Shown one piece after another: positions 18,514-32,973 of a stretch of 64,000 nucleotides of DNA (position 1 is the stretch's first letter; every line of letters starts with the position of its first letter). The DNA lies in NCBI RefSeq assembly GCF_004099695.1, contig NZ_SCHL01000003.1, positions 1-64,000 on the forward strand. The letters run 5' to 3'. The notes beneath the pieces are model-generated. The model did not search any database, was not told the DNA's origin, and worked only from the letters and a program-made list of their open reading frames with translations. The translations under genes were made by a program, and so were the position numbers. This stretch comes from Methanosarcina sp. MSH10X1 (lineage in GTDB: Archaea > Halobacteriota > Methanosarcinia > Methanosarcinales > Methanosarcinaceae).

Positions 18514-20043
18514 TCAGAAACGGCGCTCTACGGTGTAAGAGACGAGCTTCGTGCCTCTGGCTGGCACCGTTACTCTGAATTCGACGGTAAAGGCGTCAAT
18601 TTCTTCATAACTGTCCGAGCTTTCCAGAATTTCCCATTCTCCGTACAGGTGTTCCACAACCGTGACAGCCTGATCCTCAGATTTACTGTTATTAAGTTCA
18701 ATCTGATAGGTGACCCGCTCTACGTTGTCACTAATGCGCTGGTAATTGGTTTCGTTCCGCCTGGCTGTCAGATCAAAGGCCGAACCTACAGTAACTCTTA
18801 ACTCCCCGCTTTCAGGAGTATGTCTTATCCTGTCTTCCCCGATGAACTGAAGCCCTCCTGAAGCATTATCACTGTAAATTCTAACGACTCCTGCCGGAAG
18901 AGGCATTCCAAGCCCGCTTTCGTTTGTGTTTTGAAGAGTAAGGTAAGCCAGGATTTTCTCGCTCACAGAAATATCATAGATTAGTTTCTTTTCTACAGGC
19001 ACGGAATCGGCAGACAGCAGGGAAATCTGCTTTGCCTGGTTGTTTTCCAGAGTTACCGGGTTTTCAAGAGTATAAAAATGATACTCAAAAAATGGCTCTT
19101 CTACAAAAGGCGCTTGCGACACAGTTTCATCAGCCACGGCTTTTTCTTCCATAACAGGAGTTATTGGCTGCGAGACACGGTTAATCTGACCCGAGACAAG
19201 CCTCAGGACTGCATTTTCGTAAGTCAGCCCTGCCCTGTTGTCAATACTGGCCCAGCCCCGAATATCTGCTTCGGTGTTCTCCGCATTACTAATAAGGACA
19301 TAAGCCGCTTCCCAGTTCATACCGCTCGTCAGGTAGGAGATTGTAAGCTCCCGGGTCCCGGATACAGGAGAATAGATCTGCCAGATGAGAGCAGGTCTTA
19401 CCGAAAGCCCCGACGAATCTGCAAGCTCGGCTTTTGAGAAATCTTCAAGTACCACAACTTCTCCTGCTTCGGTACTCAGGACAACGCTGTTGCCTGCATG
19501 GCTCAACAGTATACCGGTGTACATCTCACCGTTCCTGTCAGTTACATTGACCTCCCTGCCAAGATATTTCTCAAGCAAACTCGAACTGTTCAAAACGTCG
19601 TATTCATAGTTCTGCTCAAGTATAACAGTATCCTCATTCTCCGGGTCCTCAATGATAACGGAAGTGGGGTCGATCCCGGAAGGAATATCCGTGTACGCAA
19701 CCTGATTTATCCCGTTTTGCAGCCTGATCTCCCGTCTTTCCTTCACAAGGGCGATTCCCTGTTCATAAACCGTAACTTCAGAATTTTCCACAACCCCGCC
19801 ACCAGCTTCTGAGGTTAAATTTCCAGAAATATCTGAGACCCGATTTTCTGCGACCCCCGGTGGCCTGATTACGGTTTCAATGACTGCACTTGTATTAATT
19901 GCAGTTGTATTACTTACGGGCTCATTTGCTGGCTCATATTCCTGAGCCATAACTCCCGTACTCTGGGGAATCCAGTTTGAAAAAAGCAGTATTCCCCCAA
20001 GAACTCCCAGTATAAGCCAGACGAAAAGTTTCTTCACTCCCAT
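18514..20043 (-). CDS. Secreted/anchored DUF4139-domain protein
   Basis: The 509-residue protein has an N-terminal hydrophobic segment (LFVWLILGVLGGILLF) acting as a signal peptide or anchor, followed by a threonine/asparagine-rich linker. The main part resembles the DUF4139 family: YEQGIALVKERREI, ISYLTSGMNWEAAYV, then GWASIDNRAGLTYENAVLRL. The function is unknown; several members are surface proteins. I start it at ATG 20043 rather than TTG 20061, because a TATA-like TATATAAAA is centred about 23 bases upstream, which would give a leaderless transcript starting at that ATG. It stands alone, convergent to the S10 operon. Confidence 0.75.
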   Translation of the reverse strand: MGVKKLFVWLILGVLGGILLFSNWIPQSTGVMAQEYEPANEPVSNTTAINTSAVIETVIRPPGVAENRVSDISGNLTSEAGGGVVENSEVTVYEQGIALVKERREIRLQNGINQVAYTDIPSGIDPTSVIIEDPENEDTVILEQNYEYDVLNSSSLLEKYLGREVNVTDRNGEMYTGILLSHAGNSVVLSTEAGEVVVLEDFSKAELADSSGLSVRPALIWQIYSPVSGTRELTISYLTSGMNWEAAYVLISNAENTEADIRGWASIDNRAGLTYENAVLRLVSGQINRVSQPITPVMEEKAVADETVSQAPFVEEPFFEYHFYTLENPVTLENNQAKQISLLSADSVPVEKKLIYDISVSEKILAYLTLQNTNESGLGMPLPAGVVRIYSDNASGGLQFIGEDRIRHTPESGELRVTVGSAFDLTARRNETNYQRISDNVERVTYQIELNNSKSEDQAVTVVEHLYGEWEILESSDSYEEIDAFTVEFRVTVPARGTKLVSYTVERRF

Positions 20044-30761: not shown

Positions 30762-31118
30762 TCAGCGGTCACAGTACATACAAACTGCCCTTTCACATTC
30801 CTCGTTCTCGAATTTCCATTTTAATCCCCAGCGTTTGATCGCCTGTATTATTTTCACGAAATCCATCCCGCTCTCGGTCAGGTAATATTCGGATTTCGGG
30901 GGGTTTGTCGAGTCATCAACCTTCTTTCCAATCAAACCTTCCGTTTCCAGCTCTGTCAGCCTCTCTGAGAGGATTTTCGGAGTTATGTAGCCGAGTTTTC
31001 TTTTGAGTTCGTTAAATCGTTTTTCCTTCTTTTCCCCTTTGTGCAGTTCCAGAAGGATATGGATTGTCCATCTTTTACCAATGATATTCATGGTCTTGTA
31101 GACTGTGCAGTCTTTCAT
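30762..31118 (-). CDS. HxlR-type transcriptional regulator with cysteine-rich ends
   Basis: The 118-residue winged-helix protein fits HxlR (TMNIIGKRWTIHILLELHKG, LGYITPKILSERLTELETEG, YYLTESG). A cysteine at residue 4 (MKDCTVY), just before the DNA-binding domain, and three more in the tail (EECERAVCMYCDR) suggest thiol or Fe-S sensing of redox state, which is inference. A TATA-like sequence centred near 31145 would put transcription start at or next to the ATG, giving a leaderless message. It is divergent from the sulfite-reductase-like gene, with an inverted repeat between the two promoters. Confidence 0.87.
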   Translation of the reverse strand: MKDCTVYKTMNIIGKRWTIHILLELHKGEKKEKRFNELKRKLGYITPKILSERLTELETEGLIGKKVDDSTNPPKSEYYLTESGMDFVKIIQAIKRWGLKWKFENEECERAVCMYCDR

Positions 31119-31151
31119 AGTATAAACATAGAAACTGTCTAATATATAAAT

Positions 31152-31187
31152 TAGTATCTCTTATATACTGGTATCAAAAGGATACTA
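31152..31187. promoter_or_regulatory. Inverted-repeat operator between divergent promoters
   Basis: GTATC-AAAAG-GATAC at 31171-31185 is a perfect inverted repeat with 5-base spacer; TAGTATC at 31152-31158 is also complementary to GATACTA at 31181-31187. The elements lie between the TATA box of the HxlR gene (31142-31148) and that of the sulfite-reductase-like gene (TTTTATAAAAT, about 31197-31208), a natural place for the HxlR protein to bind both promoters. Confidence 0.6.
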
Positions 31188-31258
31188 TTATAAATTTTAT
31201 TTTATAAAATCTGTATGAAGTATACTGGAAAAGTCCAGCGAGTTTGGAGAGATCAGCT

Positions 31259-31918
31259 ATGAAAGACAACTTACCGGAAAAAGGTGCAATCGTTCAGAGA
31301 GACCGTGAAACCTATGCAATAGCTCCTCACCTCCCCGGAGGAATTGTGGACCCGAAAACCCTCATGAAGATCGCTGAAGTTGCGGAAAAGTACGGGGCTG
31401 CTGCCCTCAAGATGACTTCTGCCCAGAGAATTGCAATCGTGGGCCTGAAAGAGGAAGACCTTGATAATGTGTGGGCTGAGCTTGACATTAAGCCCGGCGC
31501 AGCTATAGGGCTTTGCGTAAGAAGCGTAAAGTTCTGTCCGGGAACGACCTTCTGCAAGCAGGGAAAACAGGATGCAGTAAGTCTGGGTCTCAAACTGGAT
31601 GAGAAGTACCACGGGATGCCCATGCCTTCCAAATTAAAAATGGCGGTTTCCGGCTGTCCTAATTCCTGCGCTGAACCTGCTATCAAAGATATAGGGGTAA
31701 TGGGCACTGCCAGAGGGTATACCTTAATGGTCGGAGGTTCTGCGGCGGCGACTCCAAGACTTGCCGAGGTTGTCGCAAAAGAGTTATCCGAAGAAGAAGT
31801 GCTTGAGGCAATCGATAGAATCATTAATTTCTATAAAAATTCCGGCACGAAAAAGAGACTTGGAAGATTCATTGAAGATATGGGACTTGAGAGCTTCAAA
31901 ACCCGGGTAGACCTGTAA
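31259..31918 (+). CDS. Small sulfite-reductase-like (siroheme/4Fe-4S domain) protein
   Basis: The 219-residue protein carries one nitrite/sulfite reductase half-domain (LPGGIVDPKTLMKIAEVAEK) and one siroheme-4Fe-4S domain with four cysteines: C-x5-C in KFCPGTTFC and C-x3-C in SGCPNSC. This matches the small Dsr-like proteins of methanogens, whose reaction is not settled; they lack the second half and ferredoxin insertions of true dissimilatory enzymes. ATG 31259 follows GGAGAGAT; an in-frame start at 31244 is less likely. A strong terminator follows, so it is probably transcribed alone under the divergent HxlR regulator. Confidence 0.88.
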   Translation: MKDNLPEKGAIVQRDRETYAIAPHLPGGIVDPKTLMKIAEVAEKYGAAALKMTSAQRIAIVGLKEEDLDNVWAELDIKPGAAIGLCVRSVKFCPGTTFCKQGKQDAVSLGLKLDEKYHGMPMPSKLKMAVSGCPNSCAEPAIKDIGVMGTARGYTLMVGGSAAATPRLAEVVAKELSEEEVLEAIDRIINFYKNSGTKKRLGRFIEDMGLESFKTRVDL

Positions 31919-32091: not shown

Positions 32092-32271
32092 ATGGAAAAG
32101 TTTGTACTGATCAGGCATATATGGGACGAATGTCAGAATGGAATGTACAGGGAGAAAGAACAATCGAAAAGTAATGAAGGAATCAAGGTTAGCCTGGAAA
32201 TTTCTGATACAGGCTATCCCGGCTCAGTGCCGGAAGATAAACAAATTATGGTCAAAGGGGAAAATAAATGA
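32092..32271 (+). CDS. Possible 59-residue protein translationally coupled to the cupin gene
   Basis: This open frame begins at ATG 32092 (MEKFVLIRHIWDECQNG) and ends with a TGA that overlaps the cupin ATG in an ATGA arrangement. Four-base overlaps of this kind usually mark coupled genes, which favours a real product. The second half is polar (GSVPEDKQIMVKGENK). I recognise no family. The ribosome binding site is weak (CTGAAGTA), so it is uncertain. Confidence 0.4.
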   Translation: MEKFVLIRHIWDECQNGMYREKEQSKSNEGIKVSLEISDTGYPGSVPEDKQIMVKGENK

Positions 32272-32606
32272 AAGTTATTGAGATGAAATCCTCACCTGAA
32301 AAGCCGAACCCTCACAATGTGAGCGTCCGGACGCTCTACGATACCGAACATGCCCAGGCAGTACACATAGAACTCAAATCCGGGGAAGCTTTAAAGAAAC
32401 ATATCACTCCTGTAGACGTATTTTTTTACGTGCTTGAAGGAAAGGGGGTTGTTGAGATCGGGGATGAGACGCAGGAAGTCAGCCGGGATATGTTGATAGA
32501 AAGTCCTGCAAAAATTCCTCACCGCCTTTTGAATCCCAGAGATGGGATTTTCAGGGTGCTCGTTGTTAAAGCTCCAAGGCAAACCGAGTCTACACGCCTG
32601 CTGTAA
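32268..32606 (+). CDS. Small cupin-domain protein
   Basis: The 112-residue protein is a single cupin barrel: HIELKSGEALKKHITPVDVFFYVLEGKG forms motif 1 (ligands partly kept: H in KKHITP, E in VLEGKG) and KIPHRLLNP motif 2 (H). Such stand-alone cupins bind metal or small ligands and are functionally diverse. It overlaps the 59-codon frame upstream by four bases and is followed after 22 bases by the CGGC-domain gene, suggesting one transcript. Confidence 0.82.
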   Translation: MKVIEMKSSPEKPNPHNVSVRTLYDTEHAQAVHIELKSGEALKKHITPVDVFFYVLEGKGVVEIGDETQEVSRDMLIESPAKIPHRLLNPRDGIFRVLVVKAPRQTESTRLL

Positions 32607-32628: not shown

Positions 32629-32973
32629 GTGACTGGAAAAACAAAGCCTGAAAAGATAGCCGTTGTTCGCTGTGACCTGGTCTCGGAGACCTGCCCTGGC
32701 GTGGGCTGCTTCAAAGCCTTCAACGAAAGAAAATCCAGCTTTGAGGGGTATGGGATGGATACGCAGATGATTGCATTCTTCACGTGTGGGGGTTGCTCGG
32801 GAAGGAGAGTCTACCGGCTGGTTAAAGCCCTGAAAAAGCATGGGCTGGATGCTGTGCATCTCAGTTCCTGCATGCTTCTGGAAGACAGCTACCCGAAATG
32901 CCCCAATCTGGATAGTATCCGAAAGACAATCAGGGACGCGGGCATAGAGATTGTAGAAGGCACTCACCACTGA
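32629..32973 (+). CDS. CGGC-domain protein
   Basis: The 114-residue protein has the name-giving FFTCGGCSGRRV motif plus further conserved cysteines (VVRCDLVSETCPGVGC, HLSSCMLLEDSYPKCP). The spacing suggests a metal or Fe-S site. The family is found in anaerobic bacteria and archaea and its function is unknown. The start is GTG 32629, with AGGGT upstream. It is 22 bases after the cupin gene. Confidence 0.85.
   Translation: MTGKTKPEKIAVVRCDLVSETCPGVGCFKAFNERKSSFEGYGMDTQMIAFFTCGGCSGRRVYRLVKALKKHGLDAVHLSSCMLLEDSYPKCPNLDSIRKTIRDAGIEIVEGTHH

Follow-up and report, generated by a model that had tools for sequence, protein, structure and literature searches.

We found that the hxlR-reductase intergenic region of Methanosarcina sp. 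MSH10X1 contains three AGTATC-N5/6-GATACT dyads (Table 1), and that this repeat is a real, deeply conserved putative operator array. The best reading is that the array serves an HxlR-family repressor that senses through thiols or an Fe-S site and acts on its own gene and on a predicted siroheme reductase/Hcp detoxification regulon. As far as the literature searched shows, this points to a regulon that is undescribed; no paper on the Methanosarcina HxlR regulator was found, which is weak evidence given that few subscription papers were covered. All coordinates refer to the window, i.e., the whole stretch of 64,000 nucleotides that was analysed, unless a contig or locus is named.

Table 1 Features of the hxlR-reductase region in the window
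Feature	Position	Strand	Description
hxlR	30762-31118	-	118-aa HxlR-family winged-helix regulator; Cys4 and C108-X4-C113-X2-C116 tail
Whole regulatory element (profile R1)	31119-31191	+	E 3.6e-18, the better of two genome matches
Predicted operator site 1	31119-31136		AGTATAAACATAGAAACT, AGTATA-AACATA-GAAACT; AGTATC-N6-GATACT type, imperfect; touches hxlR start codon, between hxlR TATA box and ATG
hxlR TATA box	31141-31150	-	Between sites 1 and 2; TTTATATATT; TATATAAA at 31143-31150, reading TTTATATA towards hxlR
Predicted operator site 2	31153-31169		17-bp dyad AGTATCTCTTATATACT
Predicted operator site 3	31170-31186		17-bp dyad GGTATCAAAAGGATACT; holds the originally predicted inner repeat; adjoins site 2
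Candidate reductase TATA boxes	31187-31208	+	TATTATAAA, TTTTATAAAA; AT-rich TATA adjoining site 3 is conserved in Methanosarcina
Small siroheme sulfite/nitrite reductase	31259-31918	+	219 aa; PF01077 E 1.8e-33, PF03460 E 1.1e-17; P590-like size and domains
Cupin, candidate co-regulated gene	32268-32606	+	PF07883; after reductase in Methanosarcina, after hcp in other genera
CGGC-domain protein, candidate co-regulated gene	32629-32973	+	PF08821 E 4.9e-35

The original prediction of an inverted-repeat operator in this region was correct yet incomplete: there are three dyads rather than one, and the third dyad and the wider regulon had been missed. Its inner repeat, GTATC-AAAAG-GATAC, was found at 31171-31185. 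The outer TAGTATC/GATACTA pair is also present (31152-31158 and 31181-31187), but its members are best taken as the far arms of two neighbouring 17-bp dyads. The three dyads begin 0, 34, and 51 bp into the element, with the gap taken up by a TATA box. These are also the usual starts among the elements compared, giving a 17-bp ladder in which the TATA box is the second rung, and spacers of 6, 5, and 5 bp across the three dyads were found in 44 of 46 hxlR elements and 27 of 32 other elements. In simulated sequence with the dinucleotide make-up of the window, 0.125 dyads with at most one mismatch are expected per 64 kb, and a tandem dyad pair (17-18 bp spacing, at most two mismatches) arose in none of 40 simulations of the window. 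Dyad scores were 30.1 and 29.3 of 36 compared to ~21 in shuffles, and lay above all shuffles; they are descriptive only, because the elements had been found through similarity. A one-mismatch dyad elsewhere in the window (19069-19085, AGTATAAAAATGATACT) falls within a long open reading frame and is likely due to chance.

Across 30 Methanosarcina genomes, MSH10X1 included, the first ~73 bases upstream of hxlR have a mean identity of 94%, compared to 65% for the next 55 bases and 65% for the 75 bases preceding the reductase start, while the intergenic length ranges from 137 to 467 bp. The conserved block stops at the third dyad and the adjoining TATA-like stretch. Site 1 was 94-99% conserved in the 30 genomes, and a perfect dyad of its type, AGTATC-N6-GATACT, occurs in the CGGC elements of Methanohalophilus; site 3 is degenerate in Methanolobus and Methanococcoides. 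The element also abuts hxlR in these three genera, Methanosalsum, Methanimicrococcus, and others, but the divergent gene varies. In Methanolobus and Methanococcoides the reductase lies opposite hxlR; Methanohalophilus, Methanosalsum, and Methanimicrococcus have hcp in this position, two loci outside Methanosarcina have a CGGC gene, and one locus has Fsr, an F420-dependent sulfite/nitrite reductase with FrhB and NIR_SIR domains. We checked for loss of the repeat where the gene pair is kept, and the element was conserved wherever the pair occurs.

The HxlR protein matched PF01638 with an E-value of 1.1e-23 (83.3 bits, curated cut-off 20.8), which places it among the HxlR/DUF24 domain proteins. 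Foldseek searches with its model retrieved HxlR, QsrR, YodB, and HypR (7bze, 4hqe, 5hs7, 4a5n; E ~3e-6), confirming the family fold, and the nearest named sequences are from Methanosarcina. The cysteine-rich tail noted in the original prediction is real and conserved: the CX4CX2C motif was kept in 64 of 64 HxlR proteins, a set whose search pattern demanded Cys4 and which is therefore independent for the C-terminal motif only. The conservation of Cys4 accordingly rests on an alignment in which all four cysteines were invariant (13/13 members). Cys4 aligns with a cysteine of the HxlR structures 7bzd/7bze, i.e., the N-terminal redox cysteine is present. HxlR is an ordinary family member in its fold, and its cysteine set and target set are unusual. 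In the sequence, Cys4 and the CX4CX2C tail permit either a disulfide switch or a metal or Fe-S site. YodB uses a disulfide switch. The tail is disordered in the AlphaFold model (pLDDT <50), and the model therefore supports no metal-site argument. Formaldehyde sensing by HxlR requires a Cys-X-Lys pair in helix 1 (PMC7835342). Unlike the formaldehyde-sensing HxlR, the archaeal protein has V, I, or L at residue 6 of the alignment; as there is no Lys two residues past Cys4, the corresponding crosslink is unavailable, and a formaldehyde-sensing role was rejected.

The two opposing TATA boxes that had been predicted hold for Methanosarcina. The hxlR box lies ~25 bp from the hxlR ATG and no Shine-Dalgarno sequence is apparent, which makes the proposed leaderless hxlR message plausible. 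In other genera, a single box within the element seems to serve. The box was oriented towards hxlR in most hxlR elements (35/46), and most of the other elements had it facing the target (24/32). On the opposite side, the reductase more likely starts at ATG 31259, with GGAG just 5' of it, than at TTG 31244. The protein contains the NIR_SIR and ferredoxin-like half domains expected of a siroheme reductase, and its best NCBIfam match, nitrite reductase NirB, fell under the cut-off. It is likened to P590, the small siroheme sulfite reductase of Methanosarcina barkeri, in size and NIR_SIR domains; no description of the regulation of P590 was found in the literature. As to the CGGC gene further downstream, a gene of this kind lies opposite hxlR in four loci (L033, L038, L140, L146).

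A genome search with single dyads (at most two mismatches) was too weak, returning 82 sites in the MSH10X1 genome versus 49 in the reversed control, and many one-mismatch sites fell within open reading frames. The tandem-dyad pattern, applied to 31 Methanosarcina genomes, recovered the hxlR site together with another locus that recurred upstream of hcp and had not been searched for. We then used the sequence-only profile R1 (75 positions), derived from 20 hxlR-side elements; no free-standing hcp promoter was part of the input, with hcp being the divergent gene in some of the 20. At E <=0.05, R1 had two matches in the MSH10X1 genome, the hxlR site and a region upstream of hcp (C52:35652-35740, E 1.1e-5). 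Over 186 genomes of the order, 101 had a match, 98 of them in one family, and the matches in the three genomes outside that family were weak (0.003 to 0.009). Among the best 150 elements from the 186 genomes, 135 were located at hxlR, hcp, or both, with hxlR on the left in 89 and hcp on the right in 61; the distance from hxlR to the element was 1-2 bp in 83 of the 89. The other 15 include DUF166-CGGC genes of Methanohalophilus, a second reductase, cooS, ppcA, a contig end, hcp just past the distance limit, and two loci without assigned target (L196, L206). The predicted operator upstream of hcp suggests that the HxlR-linked element could control this gene, a function of the HcpR/NsrR class.

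We propose that HxlR dimers would bind the three AGTATC-N5/6-GATACT sites of the ladder (0, 34, 51) around the TATA box and block TBP, TFB, and RNA polymerase. The genes so repressed would be hxlR, the divergent siroheme reductase gene, and a distant hcp gene with the same element. HxlR would be released, and detoxification by the reductase and Hcp induced, when Cys4 and the CX4CX2C tail react with reactive nitrogen species (nitrite-derived NO or hydroxylamine being the likeliest), so that a disulfide forms or a metal or Fe-S site is damaged. That reductase and hcp are under repressive control of an HxlR-bound operator array, irrespective of the signal, appears moderately likely. Repression as such, rather than activation, is quite likely from the position of the sites, which flank the box or lie between box and start codon: site 1 is placed in this way at hxlR and, given the box polarity towards the target, sites 2 and 3 in the hcp elements. 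However, in the hcp elements site 1 immediately precedes the forward box, and an operator placed upstream of the TATA box could work in activation as well. HxlR might then recruit TBP/TFB to the reductase and hcp promoters, like Bacillus HxlR, which activates transcription on formaldehyde (PMC7835342); with the other placements being typical of repression, we consider such an activator rather unlikely.

The original prediction took redox or sulfur compounds as the signal. The sulfur part is weakened, since the same operator is found at hcp and hxlR faces hcp in several genera, and reactive nitrogen is for this reason a better common denominator: what siroheme reductase, Fsr, and Hcp share is the chemistry of nitrite, NO, and hydroxylamine. 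In bacteria, NO reduction is the function ascribed to Hcp (PMC10210160). Siroheme sulfite reductases commonly accept nitrite as well, and both nitrite and hydroxylamine are substrates of a related enzyme (PMC9295563). Against this, no NO source is known in methanogens (PMC10210160), and the presence of ppcA and cooS beside some elements does not agree with nitrogen stress as the sole theme. Overall, we give reactive nitrogen as the signal an even chance or slightly less. It is still more tentative, and on balance doubtful, that HxlR is a dedicated archaeal NO/hydroxylamine sensor with an Fe-S or thiolate site built from Cys4 and CX4CX2C, i.e., an unrelated counterpart of HcpR/NsrR acting through a three-rung ladder that encloses the TATA box.

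The same regulator might instead be a general thiol/electrophile or oxygen sensor like YodB, HypR, and QsrR, with Hcp and the reductase serving oxidative-stress defence. Fold, family, and the position of Cys4 would agree with this, and a connection between Hcp and oxidative stress has been made (PMC10210160); however, catalase, peroxidase, or quinone reductase genes were not recognised directly beside the elements examined, which were partially annotated, and we regard a general redox sensor as unlikely. Distinctly less probable is sulfite or another sulfur oxyanion as the signal, with the reductase detoxifying sulfite and Hcp being co-induced. Sulfite would be in line with the NIR_SIR domains of the reductase, the Fsr gene opposite hxlR in one locus, and the sulfite reductase activity with which P590 of M. 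barkeri was obtained (cited in PMC9295563), but hcp is the commonest distant target and takes the place of the reductase opposite hxlR in several genera, and we know of no role of Hcp with sulfite.

Returning to the proposed repressor, an hxlR orthologue was found in 96 genomes of the family and a strong element in 94 of these, counts that carry limited weight because they partly reflect shared ancestry and nearly all positives lie in one family. Neither hxlR nor the element was present in any genome searched of one genus (g4), and the R1 search found no element in three genomes that have hcp and lack hxlR. Eight of the 31 Methanosarcina genomes had no hcp match and still kept hxlR and the element. 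One genome (95% complete) has the element and hcp, with hxlR not detected. The idea of a single regulator for both promoters receives strong support from comparative genomics, the element being tied to the hxlR start codon, and HxlR is very probably its binder. A different binder, with hxlR merely one target, is very improbable: linkage alone is no proof of binding and shared ancestry accounts for part of the co-occurrence, but the element abuts the hxlR start (83/89), adjoins hxlR paralogues, and is absent where hxlR is absent.

In fold, domain, N-terminal cysteine position, and putative dyad operators, archaeal HxlR resembles HxlR, YodB, and HypR of B. subtilis and QsrR of S. aureus, and HxlR/DUF24 regulators are, as predicted for the archaeal one, often autoregulated or located beside a divergent target. 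Unlike the bacterial regulators, it has an extra CX4CX2C tail, an archaeal host, and siroheme reductase and hcp as predicted targets. The predicted regulon logic, hcp together with nitrite/NO-related reductases, is like that of the bacterial HcpR, NsrR, and DNR; these are heme or Fe-S sensors of the CRP/FNR or Rrf2 families, and homology to HxlR is not implied. There is no consensus on what Hcp and the small siroheme reductases do physiologically in methanogens; a 2023 study described the function of HCP in these archaea as an open question and proposed M. acetivorans as a tractable model (PMC10210160). The shared operator and a named regulator tie Hcp to the siroheme reductase and make the question testable, and the well-conserved three-site operator provides a system for studying archaeal transcription control.

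Further arrangements were observed at individual loci. In some Methanosarcina (five loci), the whole hxlR-element-reductase unit is tandemly duplicated, and the element of the copies has diverged but is kept. The element adjoins ppcA (PEP carboxylase) on its hxlR side in five loci; one genome (G030) has ppcA with its own element apart from hcp, and another (G014) kept the ppcA element and has no hcp. In some species the regulon may include ppcA. Two elements lie upstream of a carbon monoxide dehydrogenase-like gene (Prismane/CODH family), and three in Methanohalophilus upstream of a DUF166 gene followed by a CGGC gene. A good element at L196:2950-3020 has no obvious target on its right side and a small HTH-like gene on its left. 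Finally, four Methanosarcina hcp genes, second copies in three genomes and the sole copy in one, have a degenerate element in which site 1 and the box are recognisable and sites 2 and 3 have decayed.
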